DNA from: a virus | Length of the DNA: 23,066 bases | Strand: one strand, 5' to 3' | Virus record (IMG/VR): IMGVR_UViG_3300044625_000777 | Location: 1 to 23,066 of that record | Shown: positions 7,410-19,965 of the stretch, piece by piece | Layout: every line of letters starts with the position of its first letter | Numbering within the stretch: position 1 is the first letter of the stretch | Position numbers and translations under genes: made by a program | The notes under the pieces: model-generated | Database searches by the model: none | Told to the model about the DNA's origin: nothing | The model's input: only the letters and a program-made list of their open reading frames with translations

Positions 7410-7441
7410 ATTTTTTTCCTTTGAATAAATTTACTAATAAT

Positions 7442-8635
7442 ATGAAAATAGCTAAATTAAATATTGAAGGTTACATTGGAGGTAGTGATATGGTGTCATT
7501 ATTTTCAGGTGCAGAAACCTTTAGTTTAGCAGCTTTAAAACGTTTTTTAGATACTTTAGAAAACGATGTAACAGACATTCATGTTTACATTAATAGCGGT
7601 GGAGGTTCTGTAATTGAAGGATGGGCTATTTATGACAAAATAAAAACAAGCGGTAAAAAAATTACTACAATAGGGGAAGGTATGGTTGGTTCAATTGCAA
7701 CCATTATTTTTATGGCTGGTGATTATAGAAAGTTACATGAAAATTCACGTTTCTTTATTCATAATCCATATTGGCAACCTGATTCACCAACACCAATGGA
7801 AGCTGATGACTTAATTACTTTAGGTGAAAGTTTACAAGCTGAACAAAAAAAGATTTTAGATTTCTATTCTATACAAACAGGAAAAGCAATTGAGGAATTA
7901 GAACCATTAATGCAAAAGGCAACTGATTTAACAAGCACACAGGCTATTGAATTAGGATTTGCAAATGAAATAATATCAACAAGTGTAAATTATACACCTT
8001 ATAAATTAGTTGCTTTTGTAGCAACAGAAAACAAACCAAAACAAATAAAAATGAACAAAAACGAACAATCAGTATCGTGGATTAAAAGAGGATTCACGAA
8101 GTTAGCTGCATTGATAAATGGTGTTACTTTGAACATGGAAATGCCAGTTAAAGATGCGGAAGGAAATGAAGTATTATTATACGTTGATTCTGAAACTGAA
8201 GATTTAGTTGGCAAATCAGCTTATTTATTAGATGCTGAAGGAAATGAAAGTGCAGCGCCAAATGGTGATTATACTGATGCTAATGGCAGAGTTATTAAAG
8301 TTGCTGAAGGTGTGGTTGCTGAAGTTATTGAGGCTGAAGCTAAAAAGCATGAAGGTGAGGAAGAAACTAAAATGGAAGATTTAATTGCAAAGATTGCTGA
8401 ATTGGAATCAACAAAAGCAAATTTAACTTCTGAATTAGAATTAGTAAAAGCTGAAAAATCAAAATCGGAAACAGAATTTAATGCATTTAAAAACGAATTT
8501 GAATCACTAAAAAAAGTGGTTATTGGTAAGGGTTCAAACTTCCAAGCAAGTGAACAAGACTTTACTAAAAAAGAAGCTACAAGCGACAATTCATTTGGAG
8601 CATGGGCAATTAATAAAATAAAAAACAATAATTAA
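7442..8635 (+). CDS. ClpP-like prohead (head maturation) protease with fused scaffold-like region
   Basis: This protein of 397 residues is read from the ATG at 7442. A TTG start seven codons earlier is possible but less likely. Residues 1-180 match the S14 ClpP fold used by phages to mature capsids: INSGGGSVIEGWAIYDKI (50-67), the nucleophile Ser84 in GMVGSIATI, His107 in FIHNP, and a probable Asp162 in KATDLTSTQA. After residue 204 comes a different region. It has an Asp/Gly-rich beta segment (about residues 240-285, with GDYTDANGRVIKV) and a Lys/Glu/Leu coiled coil (about 311-360), as expected for a scaffold. The major capsid gene follows 20 bases later. An internal ATG at 8051 may give a separate scaffold. 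Family call firm; scaffold role inferred. Confidence 0.88.
   Translation: MKIAKLNIEGYIGGSDMVSLFSGAETFSLAALKRFLDTLENDVTDIHVYINSGGGSVIEGWAIYDKIKTSGKKITTIGEGMVGSIATIIFMAGDYRKLHENSRFFIHNPYWQPDSPTPMEADDLITLGESLQAEQKKILDFYSIQTGKAIEELEPLMQKATDLTSTQAIELGFANEIISTSVNYTPYKLVAFVATENKPKQIKMNKNEQSVSWIKRGFTKLAALINGVTLNMEMPVKDAEGNEVLLYVDSETEDLVGKSAYLLDAEGNESAAPNGDYTDANGRVIKVAEGVVAEVIEAEAKKHEGEEETKMEDLIAKIAELESTKANLTSELELVKAEKSKSETEFNAFKNEFESLKKVVIGKGSNFQASEQDFTKKEATSDNSFGAWAINKIKNNN
8051..8635 (+). CDS. Possible nested scaffold protein from an internal in-frame start
   Basis: An in-frame ATG at 8051 falls exactly where the protease domain ends. It has an A-rich upstream context (ACAAATAAAA), like other starts in this window. 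Translation from it would give a 194-residue protein made only of the acidic, coiled-coil scaffold-like part. Phage lambda makes its scaffold Nu3 from an internal start inside the protease gene C in the same way. This is an inference from the position and context of one start codon. The region may equally be expressed only as part of the full-length protein and be released by self-cleavage. Confidence 0.35.
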   Translation: MNKNEQSVSWIKRGFTKLAALINGVTLNMEMPVKDAEGNEVLLYVDSETEDLVGKSAYLLDAEGNESAAPNGDYTDANGRVIKVAEGVVAEVIEAEAKKHEGEEETKMEDLIAKIAELESTKANLTSELELVKAEKSKSETEFNAFKNEFESLKKVVIGKGSNFQASEQDFTKKEATSDNSFGAWAINKIKNNN

Positions 8636-10362: not shown

Positions 10363-10821
10363 ATGCCAGATAAAAGACCTAATGAAAGTAGAGAAGATTT
10401 TTTAACTCGTTGTATGAGTAATTCAGAAATGAATAAAGAATTTCCTGACAATGAACAAAGATATGCTGTTTGCTTAACAAAGGCTAAATTAAAAGAGGAA
10501 TATTACGCACAAGAATCTTATAACGATTATCCTGATAGCGTTTCAAATAATGCTAAAAGAGGAATTGAATTAAATGAAACTGTAAATAATAAATGTGCAA
10601 CACAAGTTGGTAAGGTAAGGGCGCAACAATTAGCAAATAAAGAAAAAATAAGTATTGATACGATACAAAGAATGTACTCATATTTAAGTAGGGCGGAAGT
10701 TTATTATAATGAAAATGATACAAAGGCTTGTGGCACAATTTCATATTTATTATGGGGTGGCAAGTCAGGTTTAAGTTGGAGCAAAAGTAAATTAAAAGAA
10801 TTAGATTTATTAGATGAATAG
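10363..10821 (+). CDS. Small protein with a phage head-associated conserved domain
   Basis: This protein of 152 residues has two parts. Residues 5-42 (PNESREDFLTRCMSN, then FPDNEQRYAVCLTKAK) match a short segment I know from the ends of phage prohead proteins: E-x-x-x-x-F-x-x-R-C-M ... F-P-x-x-x-Q-R-x-A-V-C. Residues 55-152 (DYPDSVSNNAKRGIELNE, VGKVRAQQLANKE, IQRMYSYLSRAEVY, YLLWGGKSGLSW) resemble a domain found alone or fused to phage portal or prohead protease proteins. Its biochemical function is unknown to me. It is the first gene after the terminator-promoter junction and overlaps the next gene by 8 bases. It may belong to the head module despite leading the sugar cassette. Confidence 0.75.
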   Translation: MPDKRPNESREDFLTRCMSNSEMNKEFPDNEQRYAVCLTKAKLKEEYYAQESYNDYPDSVSNNAKRGIELNETVNNKCATQVGKVRAQQLANKEKISIDTIQRMYSYLSRAEVYYNENDTKACGTISYLLWGGKSGLSWSKSKLKELDLLDE

Positions 10822-11599
10822 TGAATTAATAAATAAAGTTAAATCAGTTTTAGATAATCCAAAACAAAGATTAAATGAATTATTTGAATTATGTAAAACT
10901 TTATGCAATCATGCAGTGAATATAAATTGTTCATCATGCGTAACAGAGGGTGTTATGCTTTTGACAAATTGGATTAAAGAAAACAACATAAAATTGGAAG
11001 CTCAAAACTATTTTAGAAAAGCGGTAAATGGTGAATATGAATTTAAGCCACTTAATTTATTTGTTCAATACTACCAACAAGATAATCCTGAAAGACAAAA
11101 GGAAATTGATGCATGTTCTAAATTAAATCATTCTTTAAAGCATTTTAACAAGGTTTTTAGCTTAACAGAACGATTAACATATAAACAGATATTTGAACTT
11201 ACAAACGATTACGCTGATTGTATTAATGTAATATCAAATAGTGATATTTATTTTAATGAAACAATTTTATTTTCTCGTTTTATGAGAGAAGATGACTGTT
11301 ATGCTTTAAGTCGTTGGGATTATCAAGAAAATGGACTTGCAGTTTTATTTGACAGAAAAGATAGTCAGGATGCTTGGGTATTTAATGGAGCAGTAAAAAA
11401 AATACAAGATGGAAATTATAATTTAGGAACTGCTGGATGTGATAATAGAATTGCTTGGGAGTTAAAACAAGCTGGCTATAATGTACTTAATCCTTCAAAA
11501 ACAATACATTCAATTCATTTGCATTTATCTAATCATAGAACATATAAATCAATAGATAGAATAAGCGAACCTTACCATTTTATATTTCCTCATCACTAA
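10814..11599 (+). CDS. Putative glycosyltransferase-like protein with Cys-rich N-terminal domain
   Basis: This is a 261-residue protein. Residues 1-57 are helical with four Cys (27, 31, 39, 42) and a His (33) that could bind zinc. The rest resembles a GT-A-like family: a beta strand LNLFVQYYQ (80-88), INVISNSDIYF (137-147), an acidic pair before the segment CYALSRWD (162-169), KDSQDAWVF (182-190), GCDNRIAWEL (208-217), and a His-rich end HSIHLHLSNHRTY (232-244). The N-S-D and D-S-Q-D motifs are good candidates for nucleotide-sugar or metal binding. The donor and acceptor are unknown. It overlaps both neighbours, so it is part of one operon. The function is inferred from motif resemblance. Confidence 0.65.
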   Translation: MNSELINKVKSVLDNPKQRLNELFELCKTLCNHAVNINCSSCVTEGVMLLTNWIKENNIKLEAQNYFRKAVNGEYEFKPLNLFVQYYQQDNPERQKEIDACSKLNHSLKHFNKVFSLTERLTYKQIFELTNDYADCINVISNSDIYFNETILFSRFMREDDCYALSRWDYQENGLAVLFDRKDSQDAWVFNGAVKKIQDGNYNLGTAGCDNRIAWELKQAGYNVLNPSKTIHSIHLHLSNHRTYKSIDRISEPYHFIFPHH

Positions 11600-12522
11600 T
11601 GAAATTATTACACATAGGACTTTGTGTTTCTGAAATAGAAAACGGATTTCAAAAAGCATTTAAAAATGTTTTAGGAAGTGAAAATTATTTTGAATTAAGT
11701 ACAGGTGAACAGCATATAAATGTAAAGATTTTACAAAAGTTTAATGAATGTAAACCTAATATTGTATTTTTTCAAATACAAGCTGAAAACATAGTAGCAA
11801 ATCAAACATTTGACTATTTAAAAAGTAATGGTGCTTTTGTTATTAATTGGACTGGAGACAAAAGAAATAGTGTACCACAATGGATGATTGATGCTGCACC
11901 TTTTGTTAGTTTAACAGCTTTTAGTAACATGGAGGATGTAAGAGAATTAAATAAATTAGGATATGACAGTAAATACTTGGAAATTGGTTATGATGAAAAC
12001 ATTTACAATAATTTTGGCGATGCTTATACTGATTATGAGGTATTGTTTATGGCTAATAATTATGGCGCTGGTTATTTTCCATTTAGTCAATTTAGAATTG
12101 AAATAGCAGAAAACTTAAAGAATAAATTAAGTTCTTTTGGTTTATTTGGTAGTGGTTGGTTAAAAGGAAATGGTAATGTTAATCACTCACAATATGAAGA
12201 AGCTAAATGGTATAAAGGATGTAAAATTGCAATTAATTGTAGCCATTATAATGTAGCTCGTTACAATTCAGATAGGCTTTTAAGAATATTAGGAAGTGGT
12301 GCTTTTTGTTTATCTTATAAGCATCCTGAAATGGAAGAGGATTATGAAAATTATAAGCATTTAGTTTATTTTGATTCAATAGAAGATTTAAATAACAAGA
12401 TTGATTACTATTTACAAAATGAAGATGAAAGAAAACAAATTGCTTACAATGGGCAAGAATTAGTTTTAAATAGAAATACATTTAAACATCAAGTAGAAAA
12501 TATAATAAAATTAGCACAATGA
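11599..12522 (+). CDS. GT-B glycosyltransferase, CgeB/GT1-like
   Basis: The product has 307 residues. The N-terminal half starts with a Rossmann-type strand (KLLHIGLCVSE) and has PNIVFFQIQ (53-61) and VINWTGDKR (80-88), as in the CgeB-like group of glycosyltransferases. The C-terminal half has FGLFGSGW, CKIAINCSHY and YNSDRLLRILGSGAFCLSYK, where the R-x-x-E-x-x-x-x-G-x-x-x-x pattern of the GT1 donor site is recognisable in modified form (Arg-Leu-Leu-Arg-Ile-Leu-Gly-Ser-Gly). It would transfer a sugar from a nucleotide donor in the cytoplasm. The ATG overlaps the preceding TAA by one base, and its own stop is coupled to the next gene (ATGA). Acceptor unknown. Confidence 0.82.
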   Translation: MKLLHIGLCVSEIENGFQKAFKNVLGSENYFELSTGEQHINVKILQKFNECKPNIVFFQIQAENIVANQTFDYLKSNGAFVINWTGDKRNSVPQWMIDAAPFVSLTAFSNMEDVRELNKLGYDSKYLEIGYDENIYNNFGDAYTDYEVLFMANNYGAGYFPFSQFRIEIAENLKNKLSSFGLFGSGWLKGNGNVNHSQYEEAKWYKGCKIAINCSHYNVARYNSDRLLRILGSGAFCLSYKHPEMEEDYENYKHLVYFDSIEDLNNKIDYYLQNEDERKQIAYNGQELVLNRNTFKHQVENIIKLAQ

Positions 12523-13259
12523 AAGTTTTAGGATTTATGACCATTCATTATGGTTTAGAATATTTAAAAGAAAGTTTATTATCAATTAAAGACCATGTAG
12601 ATGGGATGGTTGTTAGTTATACTCATAAACCTTCACATGGTTATAAAACTATTTTAGATTGCCCAGATAAAGCTGAAGATATAAGAAAAGTTTGTGAAGA
12701 AACTTTAGGAAATAAATTAATTTGGGATGAGGCTACATTTTATGGTGCTGAATGGCAGCATAGAGAGGTAAGGTATAAATACTCACAGGGATTTGATTTA
12801 ATACTAACAATTGATGCAGACGAGGTATTTGAACCAAGCGAAATAGAAATAGCTTTAAAATACGCTTATACAAATCCTGAAAGGTATTATGGAATAAAAG
12901 GTTATCTTAATTTTTGGAGGTCTTTTAATTATATTTGTTTAGATGGATTTAGACCAATAAGAATAGAAAATTTAAATAATTATAATAATTTACAGAATAT
13001 AAATTGCCCTTTAACCATTTATCATTTTAGCACAGCTCAAAGTAAAGCGATTATGGAATATAAATATTCATGCTTTGGACACGCAAGTGAAATTAAAGCT
13101 GATTATTTAGAAAAGATATTTTATAAATGGACACCTGAAAACAATTTTGGTGATTTACATCCAGTTTCAATTAATCTTTGGAACGCTGTAAAATATAATA
13201 AAAATAATTTGCCTAACTTTATGCACTCACATCCAAACTTTAATAAATTATTGATATGA
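12519..13259 (+). CDS. GT-A glycosyltransferase, family 2-like
   Basis: This 246-residue protein has an N-terminal strand-turn-helix (KVLGFMTIHYGLEYLKESL) typical of GT2-like enzymes. It has a clear metal-binding D-x-D motif, ILTIDADEVFEP (95-106, Asp99-Ala-Asp101). Downstream, aromatic-rich segments (YYGIKGYLNFWRSFNYICLDG) and a late HASEIK probably form the acceptor side. The start overlaps the stop of the preceding GT-B gene as ATGA, so the two are translationally coupled. The fold and sugar-transfer role are well supported by the DAD motif. The sugar and the acceptor are not known. No membrane segment, so a soluble cytoplasmic enzyme. Confidence 0.8.
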   Translation: MKVLGFMTIHYGLEYLKESLLSIKDHVDGMVVSYTHKPSHGYKTILDCPDKAEDIRKVCEETLGNKLIWDEATFYGAEWQHREVRYKYSQGFDLILTIDADEVFEPSEIEIALKYAYTNPERYYGIKGYLNFWRSFNYICLDGFRPIRIENLNNYNNLQNINCPLTIYHFSTAQSKAIMEYKYSCFGHASEIKADYLEKIFYKWTPENNFGDLHPVSINLWNAVKYNKNNLPNFMHSHPNFNKLLI

Positions 13260-13336
13260 TAGTTTATCATTTTTATGATGGGATTTTTGAAGTTTGGAAA
13301 TGTAAATTTTATACAATTGAATTATGCATGAATTAG
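13256..13336 (+). CDS. Possible 26-residue peptide coupled to the upstream GT gene
   Basis: An ATG overlaps the stop of the GT2-like gene as ATGA and opens a frame of 26 residues (starts MIVYHFYDGIFEVWK). It crosses the only real gap in the cassette and ends 13 bases inside the next gene. Coupling of this kind is used by most genes here, so it may be translated. It could also be the remnant of a gene lost between the two neighbours, or just chance. Confidence 0.3.
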   Translation: MIVYHFYDGIFEVWKCKFYTIELCMN

Positions 13337-13935
13337 CAGCTGTTATAGTAGATACAAGAAGATTAAGTTTATATCAAGTAATTACAGAACATTTATTTTA
13401 TTTACCTAAGTACACAAAGCTTTACATATTTAGTTCTGAAGATAATAGGCATTTACAAGAAATGCTTAACTGTGAATTTTACGTTGTAGAAATAAATGAT
13501 ATTAGAGGATATAATAAACTTTTAAAATCAAAAAACTTTTGGAATAAAATTAAAGAAGAAAATATATTAATTTTTCAAGAAGATAGCAGAGTATTAATAG
13601 AAGGAATTGAAGATTTTTATGAATATGATTATGTAGGTGCTGCATGGGATTTTTATCCTTTTGTTGGTAATGGTGGTTTAAGCTTCAGACACAAATCAGC
13701 AATGTTAAAAGTTTTAGAAGTTTGCAATCCTGAAAATGATATTAATGAGGATGTTTACTTTGCGTGGGGATGTAATGTTTTAAAATTAAATTTAGCACCA
13801 GTTCATGTAGCAAATAAATTTAGCTGTGAAACTCAATTTAATTTAGGAACTTTAGGTTATCATGCAATAGAAAAATATTTATCTTTAGAACAAGTAAATG
13901 AAATAAAAAAGCAATATGAATCAATTATTAATTAG
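13324..13935 (+). CDS. DUF5672-like putative glycosyltransferase
   Basis: The 203-residue product matches by eye the DUF5672 family, thought to be GT-A-like: an N-terminal AAVIVDTRR (5-13), the acidic motif FQEDSRV (84-90), DYVGAAWDF (102-110), VGNGGLSFRHKSAML (114-128) and NEDVYFAWGC (141-150). The order Q-x-D, Y-V-G-A-x-W, G-N-G-G-x-S-x-R and E-D-x-x-F is characteristic of that family. The start ATG at 13324 is the first after an in-frame stop at 13318-13320. Its 3' end overlaps the next gene by 20 bases. Substrate unknown. It belongs to the sugar-modification cassette. Confidence 0.78.
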   Translation: MHELAAVIVDTRRLSLYQVITEHLFYLPKYTKLYIFSSEDNRHLQEMLNCEFYVVEINDIRGYNKLLKSKNFWNKIKEENILIFQEDSRVLIEGIEDFYEYDYVGAAWDFYPFVGNGGLSFRHKSAMLKVLEVCNPENDINEDVYFAWGCNVLKLNLAPVHVANKFSCETQFNLGTLGYHAIEKYLSLEQVNEIKKQYESIIN

Positions 13936-14488
13936 GGACAATTTCCAACAAGCTTGTAGAACTCCAAGTGATATAAATGAACATTTAGAGGTACTTTATG
14001 ATTTAGCAAAAGAATGTTCACATATTACAGAAATGGGTGTTCGTTCTGTTGTAAGTACATGGGCTTTTATGTATAGAAATCCAAGTATTTTAGTTGGAAT
14101 TGATTTACATGTTCATCCTAATATTGATGAGGCTTTAAAAGTTTATACTAATTGGAAATTTATTCAAGCTGATACGCTTAAAATTGAAATAGAGCCAACA
14201 GAATTACTTTTTATTGATACATTACATATTTACACTCAATTAAAAAAAGAATTGTTTAAACATGGGAAAAAGGCGAAAAAATATATTGTATTACATGATA
14301 CAACTACTTACGGGAAAATTGATGAACCGACTGATTGGCAAACTCCTGAAATCATGCAAAACTATAAGCAAGAAGAAAAACAAGGTTTAATTCCAGCAAT
14401 TGAGGAATTTTTAAATGAAAATAAAGAATGGTATATTTACAGACAATATACAAATAATAATGGTTTAACTATTTTAAAAAGAATATGA
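13916..14488 (+). CDS. Putative SAM-dependent methyltransferase
   Basis: This protein of 190 residues has a Rossmann-like methyltransferase layout: a motif I region HITEMGVRSVVSTWAF (36-51) with an acidic residue before a Gly, then a strand SILVGIDLH (57-65). An acidic strand LLFIDTLHIYTQLKKEL follows (97-113), and then YIVLHDTTTYG (123-133). The strand I-D-x-x-H ... L-H-D pattern is usual in Methyltransf_24 and cephalosporin hydroxylase-like enzymes that accompany glycan biosynthesis genes. It may methylate a sugar or other acceptor after transfer. The first Gly-rich loop is less perfect than in classic enzymes. It overlaps its upstream neighbour by 20 bases and its downstream neighbour by 4 (ATGA). 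Confidence 0.7.
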   Translation: MNQLLIRDNFQQACRTPSDINEHLEVLYDLAKECSHITEMGVRSVVSTWAFMYRNPSILVGIDLHVHPNIDEALKVYTNWKFIQADTLKIEIEPTELLFIDTLHIYTQLKKELFKHGKKAKKYIVLHDTTTYGKIDEPTDWQTPEIMQNYKQEEKQGLIPAIEEFLNENKEWYIYRQYTNNNGLTILKRI

Positions 14489-14817
14489 ATTTAAAATTTA
14501 GAATTAAGCAAGATTTTATTCATTGTGATATTATCACTAAGGATAAATCAGGAAATGATGTTTTAGTAAATCATTTAAACTTTAATGATTATTTTGCTAA
14601 CTTAATCTTTATTGCTGGGCAAAGTCATTTAATTGAATTGAATCCTTTATATGATGCACAACTACAGGAAGAAAAAAAAACTTTCGAGCAAATATCGGAA
14701 AATGTTATTGCATTAACTTACAATCCTCTTCAGATAGAAGAAAACAATTTAACAGAAATTCCAAAAGAGCAGGAATTAAAGCGCAAACGTGGAAGGCAAC
14801 CGAAAGTGAAAATATAA
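14485..14817 (+). CDS. Small protein with basic, AT-hook-like C-terminus
   Basis: This is a 110-residue protein of unknown family. Residues 1-65 look like a compact alpha/beta domain. Residues 66-95 are acidic and Asn/Glu-rich. The end is very basic (KRKRGRQPKVKI), close to the AT-hook core R-G-R-P but with a Gln before the Pro. It starts in an ATGA overlap with the methyltransferase gene. Its last 120 or so bases also encode, in another frame, what looks like the N-terminus of the GT25 protein. An A9 run at 14672-14680 offers a -1 slippery site (A AAA AAA) that would join residues 1-65 to that protein. Role unknown. Confidence 0.65.
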   Translation: MNLKFRIKQDFIHCDIITKDKSGNDVLVNHLNFNDYFANLIFIAGQSHLIELNPLYDAQLQEEKKTFEQISENVIALTYNPLQIEENNLTEIPKEQELKRKRGRQPKVKI

Positions 14818-15284
14818 AACATAATGGATTTTTATTGCCGACTGAAATAGCAACCCTTCGCAGTCACATGGCAATACTTCAGCACTCTTTAAATGAAAAT
14901 TTGGAGAGTGTTTTTATTTTAGAAGATGACGTTGATTTTACAGAAGATTTTATTAATAAATTAAATGATTCTTTAAAAGAATTGCCTGAAGACTGGGATG
15001 GGATTCATTTAGGTGGTTATTCACCAAATGGAAGCACAGTTAATTATTCAATAATGTTAAATAAATGTTTTGCAAGTTGGGGTGGTTATGGTTACATTGT
15101 AAATAAAAAAGCTATTCCAATAATTTTAGAAACAATTGAAAAAGAGGAAAAACAAATTGATACTTATATTGCAGGTTTAATGCCATCATTAAAATGGTTT
15201 AAAACAAAAGAAAAACTTGTTTTACATCCACCTAATCAAAGTACTATATTAAACAAGTGGGTTGATTATAAAGATTTATATTAA
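14694..15284 (+). CDS. GT25-family glycosyltransferase with unresolved, out-of-frame N-terminus
   Basis: The product resembles glycosyltransferase family 25 (LPS sugar transferases): CYCINLQSSSDRRKQF at the N-terminus, LLPTEIATLRSHMAIL, then VFILEDDVDF (E-D-D at 77-79 in this numbering), DWDGIHLGG, and SWGGYGYIVNKKA. A conventional start (TTG 14835 or ATG 14868) removes the whole N-terminal strand with I-N-L and D-R-R, which GT25 enzymes need. The frame is open from 14655 but has no ATG, GTG or TTG before the motif. The coordinate given begins at ATC 14694, where the family would be expected to start. Expression may use a rare start or a -1 frameshift at A9 (14672-14680), giving a 266-residue fusion. 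Family call firm, start uncertain. Confidence 0.7.
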   Translation: MGKCYCINLQSSSDRRKQFNRNSKRAGIKAQTWKATESENIKHNGFLLPTEIATLRSHMAILQHSLNENLESVFILEDDVDFTEDFINKLNDSLKELPEDWDGIHLGGYSPNGSTVNYSIMLNKCFASWGGYGYIVNKKAIPIILETIEKEEKQIDTYIAGLMPSLKWFKTKEKLVLHPPNQSTILNKWVDYKDLY

Positions 15285-19357: not shown

Positions 19358-19965
19358 TTGCTTTAAGTAGCACAATATATTATCAAAAAAAAAAATTATG
19401 CGAACCTATTTATAATTTACAATGGGCAACAATTCAAGGTACAAGTAATTTGAGTGATTATCCTGCATACGGGCTTTATAACTTTTCTCACACAATGTTT
19501 ATTATAAAAAAAAGTGAATTAATAAGTGCAAAGCAAATAACAGGCTTACAAATACACATGGCTGGTTACTCTTCAGGTTACACTTATAATAATCAAATAA
19601 TAAAATTAGCACATATTACAGATTCACAATTTGGTACTAATGTTCAAGTATTAAATACAAATGGTGATGTTAGTGGAATAGCAGGAATGAAAGATTTAAA
19701 AACAGTTAAAACTTTTAATTGGACTGTAACTTCAGGATTTAATAATTTAATTTTTGATAAAAATTTTTGTTATAATGGAAGTGACAATCTTTTAATTATT
19801 TGGATTAATAAAGATGGAAGTTGGCAAAGTGGATATGGTTGGGCTGAATGCCATTCAACTAGCGCACAATTCTTAAGTTGGTATAAACAAAATGATGCAA
19901 GTTATCCAACAGGATTAGGTACAAGAAATTCATCAACAAGACCTAACATCAAATTAAATTATTAA
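19354..19965 (+). CDS. Putative receptor-binding or carbohydrate-binding tail protein
   Basis: This 203-residue protein is rich in Tyr, Trp, Asn, Ser and Gly with alternating strands, as in lectin-like beta-sandwich modules (LQIHMAGYSSGYTYNNQIIK, NLLIIWINKDGSWQSGYGW). Many surface aromatic residues suit sugar binding. The family is not recognised. Codons 11-14 hold an uninterrupted A11 run (19385-19395), unusual in a structural gene and a possible slippage site near the start. It overlaps the previous gene by 4 bases and the next by one. The function is inferred from composition and position in the fibre block. Confidence 0.6.
   Translation: MIALSSTIYYQKKKLCEPIYNLQWATIQGTSNLSDYPAYGLYNFSHTMFIIKKSELISAKQITGLQIHMAGYSSGYTYNNQIIKLAHITDSQFGTNVQVLNTNGDVSGIAGMKDLKTVKTFNWTVTSGFNNLIFDKNFCYNGSDNLLIIWINKDGSWQSGYGWAECHSTSAQFLSWYKQNDASYPTGLGTRNSSTRPNIKLNY

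Follow-up and report, generated by a model that had tools for sequence, protein, structure and literature searches.

This analysis points to a phage gene with two products, one of them a glycosyltransferase. The stretch of DNA analysed (the window) is the complete IMG/VR record IMGVR_UViG_3300044625_000777, of 23,066 bases, and comparison with its relatives makes it very probable that one gene yields two proteins through programmed -1 recoding on a nine-A run (A9). Most decoding would stop at 14817 and give a 110-residue protein with a folded N-terminal domain (N domain) and a disordered basic tail, while a fraction would slip by -1 on A_AAA_AAA (14673-14679) and proceed in the other frame to 15284. 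The slipped product would be a fusion in which the same N domain is followed by a complete glycosyltransferase of family 25 (GT25). The case for the slip is built on sequence comparison; a slipping ribosome is its probable agent and RNA polymerase a less probable one, with the same fusion expected either way. The elements of the locus are the following.

14485..14817, + strand: 0-frame gene (open reading frame, relatives, AlphaFold2), product of 110 residues
14652..14654, + strand: TGA closing the GT25 (-1) frame upstream of the proposed slip site (comparison of relatives)
14672..14680, + strand: A9, proposed slip site, with heptamer A_AAA_AAA at 14673-14679 in the 0 frame; nine A's in 26/26 sequences
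14679..15284, + strand: -1 frame of the predicted fusion, GT25 domain, 201 residues and stop (Pfam, PHROG, Foldseek)
14681..14735, + strand: near-invariant stretch after the run (7/55 against 30/82 variable columns, Fisher p 0.003)
14694..14696, + strand: ATC codon, put forward in the earlier note as a possible start; replaced by GTC in L052-L054 and by TAC in L055-L058
14815..14817, + strand: 0-frame stop of the short product (comparison of relatives)

The comparison set comprises 26 sequences: the window and 25 IMG/VR relatives with the GT25 frame, obtained from scans of viral contigs. All 25 are metagenome contigs of one phage lineage and do not represent 25 independent events. Over the GT25 frame, amino acid identity is 84-99% in 21 relatives and 48-53% in four distant ones (L055-L058), whose N proteins, the products of the 0-frame gene, are 42-44% identical; the selection counts given below use 19 distinct sequences of the near group. 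The same gene order, N protein in one frame and GT25 in the -1 frame, is common to all 26, and the distant loci also retain the neighbouring genes, from those for sugar enzymes through the portal. Each of the 25 loci found by way of the N protein has the GT25 frame too, and an N protein lacking it was found in none of the viral contigs, bacterial genomes or phage records. The N protein has no match in the phage records, where the GT25 frame meets distant GT25 sequences only (21-28% identity). Neither protein was found in the bacterial genomes searched, which also gave no GT25 relative with its own ATG, and the DNA of the locus has no match in the phage collection.

The earlier note had proposed that the N-terminus of the GT25 protein lies out of frame inside the preceding gene, and a profile search bears this out. 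As had been read, no stop interrupts this frame between 14655 and the one that ends at 15284, and its listed starts are TTG at 14835 and later codons only. The translation of 14655-15281 matches Pfam PF01755 (Glyco_transf_25) with an E value of 4e-12 and 46.8 bits (cut-off 24), the alignment beginning at residue 16. Begun at 14835, it scores 36.4 bits and enters the profile at position 67 instead of 3; since both score and profile coverage are reduced, the hidden N-terminus is real GT25 sequence. The first GT25 strand (KCYCINL..DRR) is thus encoded out of frame within the 14485-14817 gene. The hidden region had been given as 14655-14868, and here the coordinates need revision: the conserved overlap extends over 14672-14817, beginning with the A run and closing with the 0-frame stop. 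The beginning described as normal for GT25, I-N-L followed by D-R-R, is present; its first element is invariant and its second varies (GRR in L015, DRK in L055 and L058). Across near and distant groups alike, GKCY[CF]INL and LEDD are unchanged.

Other comparisons agree with this assignment. The GT25 frame matches PHROG 2835 (glucosyltransferase) at 1.8e-15, and a Foldseek search with its structural model returns GT25 enzymes as best matches, including bacterial beta-1,4-galactosyltransferases, Mimivirus R655 (E 7e-9) and human COLGALT1 (E 5e-8). The model, made separately from that of the N protein, is of medium confidence (mean pLDDT 66) and shows the GT-A-like fold of the GT25 family. By sequence and predicted structure, then, the GT25 frame belongs to glycosyltransferase family 25 and encodes a predicted enzyme.

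The 110-residue protein is predicted by AlphaFold2 to fold into a domain in its N-terminal part (about residues 1-55), which is followed by a helix spanning the slip site and by a disordered tail; pLDDT is about 95 for residues 11-50 and falls under 50 in the tail. It terminates in KRKRGRQPKVKI, and its basic KRGR-type tail is kept across relatives, in accord with the earlier reading of a plausible basic C-terminus for this gene in its own frame. The 0-frame stop, TAA or TAG, stands at a constant distance from A9 in both near and distant groups. No family in Pfam, PHROG or NCBIfam matches the N protein, and no fold in the PDB matches the N domain. A weak structural match connects the N domain (14485-14679) to BFVD entry A0A6J5QQC0 (E 0.01, 27% identity over 52 columns), an uncharacterised phage protein of 177 residues, which may indicate a wider family.

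Across the run the 14485 frame reads GAA AAA AAA ACT, so that A_AAA_AAA is correctly phased, and the length of nine and the phase described in the earlier note are both exact. They are also identical in 26/26 sequences; runs of eight or ten A's occur in 0/25 relatives. The flanks, meanwhile, do change (preceding base C in L014, following base G in L058). The A run is not unusual by itself, as the genome is AT-rich and its codon use would supply about four runs of at least nine A's by chance (4.1 expected, against 2 observed), and the case for recoding therefore rests on conservation of the run and not on its mere presence. The stop that closes the GT25 frame upstream lies no more than two codons from the run in 11/26 sequences; the TGA of L055 ends on the first A of the run, so that this frame can be entered only at or after it. 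As had been calculated, a -1 slip yields a fusion of 266 residues, 65 from the 0 frame and 201 from the GT25 frame. Residue 65, the slip point, falls beyond the predicted end of the N-domain fold (about residue 55) and the GT25 domain starts directly after it. According to these models, the slip joins a small N domain to a complete GT25 at a domain boundary, and the predicted junction peptide is EEKKNFRANIGK.

The pattern of variation indicates that both frames of the overlap are under purifying selection and that both products are maintained, the latter also because the 0-frame stop distance and the basic tail are kept. Among the 19 near sequences, variable columns number 0/9 in the A run, 7/55 in 14681-14735, 30/82 in 14736-14817 and 150/458 in the part encoding GT25 only. 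In this last part third codon positions vary in 101/153 cases and second positions in 17/153, and the variability by codon position passes from this pattern outside the overlap to a two-frame pattern inside it. Under synonymous recoding of the 0 frame, the probability that the GT25 frame stays open is 0 to 0.0013; under synonymous recoding of the GT25 frame, the 0 frame stays open with a probability of 0.0025-0.20. Fisher tests on these counts give p values of 0.003, for the lower variability of 14681-14735 relative to the rest of the overlap, and 0.002. This near-invariance was set aside as proof of an RNA signal, because a -1 overlap leaves few silent changes and constraint on both proteins could produce the same result; it may reflect either an RNA signal or two strongly constrained proteins.

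Programmed frameshifting was one of five options first listed for the locus, and the 25 relatives support it over the other four. Initiation of GT25 at the non-standard ATC codon at 14694, inside the upstream gene and with no fusion, would fit an A-rich tract before the codon and the first GT25 strand directly after it, and ATC is present in 19/26 sequences. The remaining seven nevertheless carry GTC (three relatives) or TAC (the four most distant), and L058 has no ATG, GTG, TTG, CTG, ATT, ATC or ATA before the INL motif; internal initiation is accordingly not an explanation for the whole family. It would also leave an exact A9 with a phased A_AAA_AAA unexplained, and we regard it as highly improbable. 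Entry at a normal start fares no better: ATG, GTG and TTG before the motif are absent from 26/26 sequences, as the earlier note had found for the window, and no relative among the 25 has a clear ATG for its GT25. Glycosyltransferases of surface glycans are often phase-variable by way of homopolymer tracts, so that GT25 might be silent here and expressed in genomes with another run length, or the gene might be decaying. Poly-A tracts are capable of such switching (PMC3711429). Against a switch, the run is nine in every sequence, and a run length that joined the frames would abolish the short product, whose tail and stop are in fact conserved; against decay, which two-frame selection rules out, the GT25-only part evolves like a working gene in its codon positions and its invariant LEDD. 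Both variants are thus very unlikely. Error in sequencing or assembly, to which homopolymers are prone, is less credible still, to the point of being negligible, since the same run length recurs in 25 other contigs, some only about 42-50% identical; with A9 constant in every assembly, a read error is ruled out and phase variation by this tract is disfavoured. The conserved layout of the locus, the selection acting on its two frames and the lack of a shared alternative entry together make programmed -1 recoding the best explanation. What is found is a downstream frame that is open, encodes a known domain and has no start of its own, a phased slippery site conserved in 26/26, and an overlap under selection in both frames with unusual conservation at the site.

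Which machinery slips is a closer matter. RNA polymerase could slip on the run and produce mRNAs with one extra A, normal translation of which would give an identical fusion. A9 reaches the homopolymer length, roughly nine A or T, associated with transcriptional slippage: nine A's, the exact length here, slip efficiently in bacterial transcription in vivo (PMC5009743), and A_n with n>7 is counted among the sites of transcriptional realignment (PMC3711429). Such slippage would also sit well with the want of a conserved stimulatory RNA structure. Ribosomal frameshifting usually comes with a stimulatory structure downstream or a Shine-Dalgarno-like element upstream, although neither is obligatory. 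In the near group hairpins are possible 3' of the run (z about -2), with UUUCGA/UCGGAA and AAUGU/GCAUU as candidates within 14681-14735. A conserved hairpin or pseudoknot is nonetheless not supported: the hairpins of the window are absent from the distant group, the two groups fold differently, and the family alignment contains zero covarying pairs. Rfam has no family matching the locus, and no purine-rich element resembling a Shine-Dalgarno sequence is conserved across relatives (it is absent in L014). A possible pairing of a loop GCAA with UUGC (14708-14711) has pairing bases that are invariant in the near group. Three observations run against the polymerase: the shift has a single direction, -1, in all orthologs, which is taken as a sign of ribosomal frameshifting (PMC3711429); the phase sets A_AAA_AAA on the P and A sites; and 14681-14735 is more conserved than the remaining overlap. 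Slippage during transcription is consequently a serious but lesser possibility, and a ribosomal slip the probable one. A_AAA_AAA and A runs longer than seven are known recoding sites (PMC3711429), and an A9 kept over deep divergence with no conserved stimulatory structure offers a clean case for comparing ribosomal with transcriptional slippage.

The locus is preceded by a cassette resembling sugar enzymes (10814-14488) within the head-gene region. Pfam identifies Glyco_trans_1_2 at 11599, a weak GT2 at 12519 and DUF5672 at 13324, with no family for the gene at 13916; the cassette includes two unassigned proteins in all, and its order is kept in the distant L056 and L058 over the span that these loci cover. 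One of the two (13916-14488) is a conserved protein of 190 residues that by eye resembles a class I methyltransferase-like fold (FIDTLHIY, VLHDTTT). The gene downstream of GT25 is the portal (15325), which is about 22% identical to its relatives in phages of Bacteroides and Cellulophaga. Elsewhere in the window, 7421-8635 encodes a ClpP-like prohead protease that has an extended C-terminal part and TTG as the first listed start, similar to NCBIfam protease and capsid models at scores below their cut-offs. An A11 run (19385-19395) near the start of the 19354-19965 gene (YYQKKKLCEP), found also in the contig of L047, could be a slippage site in a second gene.

A reasonable role for the enzyme, by analogy, would be glycosylation of virion or host-surface material, which fits a cassette between capsid and portal genes. 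One report suggests capsid glycosylation for two phage glycosyltransferases (PMC11256854), and a host-envelope role has been proposed for a glycosyltransferase encoded near head genes (PMC8008677). Tentatively, the locus may represent a new recoding cassette in which a fixed slip ratio provides sub-stoichiometric glycosyltransferase, tethered through the N domain to a complex of the short form; the shared N domain would then serve as an adaptor bringing a limited dose of enzyme to a phage or host target. If true, recoding would determine both how much glycosylation of the virion or host surface takes place and where it is directed. There is also a practical consequence: gene finders that depend on start codons would call a truncated GT25 from 14835, losing the first strand and the fusion.

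The GT25 domain itself shares sequence family (PF01755) and fold with Mimivirus R655, COLGALT1 and the bacterial beta-1,4-galactosyltransferases, which are known as separate, normally started proteins. A normal ATG is likewise present in an unrelated phage GT25 (L059) returned by the viral contig scans, unlike the GT25 frame of the 26-member family. In the open-access literature we found no frameshift fusion with a glycosyltransferase as the frameshifted part. In bacteria, frameshifting has been reported for a fucosyltransferase gene of Helicobacter pylori, and making a glycosyltransferase by this route may therefore have a precedent there. Phages provide well-known examples of frameshift fusions, in tail chaperones and in extensions of coat and tail proteins (PMC5009743); those named in the literature covered mostly concern virion assembly or structure, whereas here an enzyme is apparently made only as a recoded fusion, and in a lineage to which nothing in the phage collection searched is closely related. 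The A_AAA_AAA and A_n sites of transposases and dnaX have the same slippery run, and there too a ribosomal or transcriptional origin is often unclear (PMC3711429), but the phage locus is neither a transposase nor DnaX, and a conserved stem-loop was not found. In T7/T3 10A/10B and the phage Ig-like extensions, a -1 slip gives a minority of the protein an extra extension or domain (PMC5009743). The added domain here differs in being predicted to be catalytic, the N domain is no known virion protein, and the short form retains a conserved 45-residue tail in the overlap. The tail assembly chaperone of phage lambda, gpG/gpGT, depends on -1 programmed ribosomal frameshifting: the short product of the 0 frame and a less abundant -1 fusion have the same N-terminal domain, the slip lies near the end of the 0-frame gene and the arrangement is kept in related phages (PMC5009743). 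Relative to lambda, the part added here is a GT25 enzyme in place of a tail-assembly domain, the site is A9, and the surroundings are a cassette of glycosyltransferase genes flanked by those for capsid and portal.
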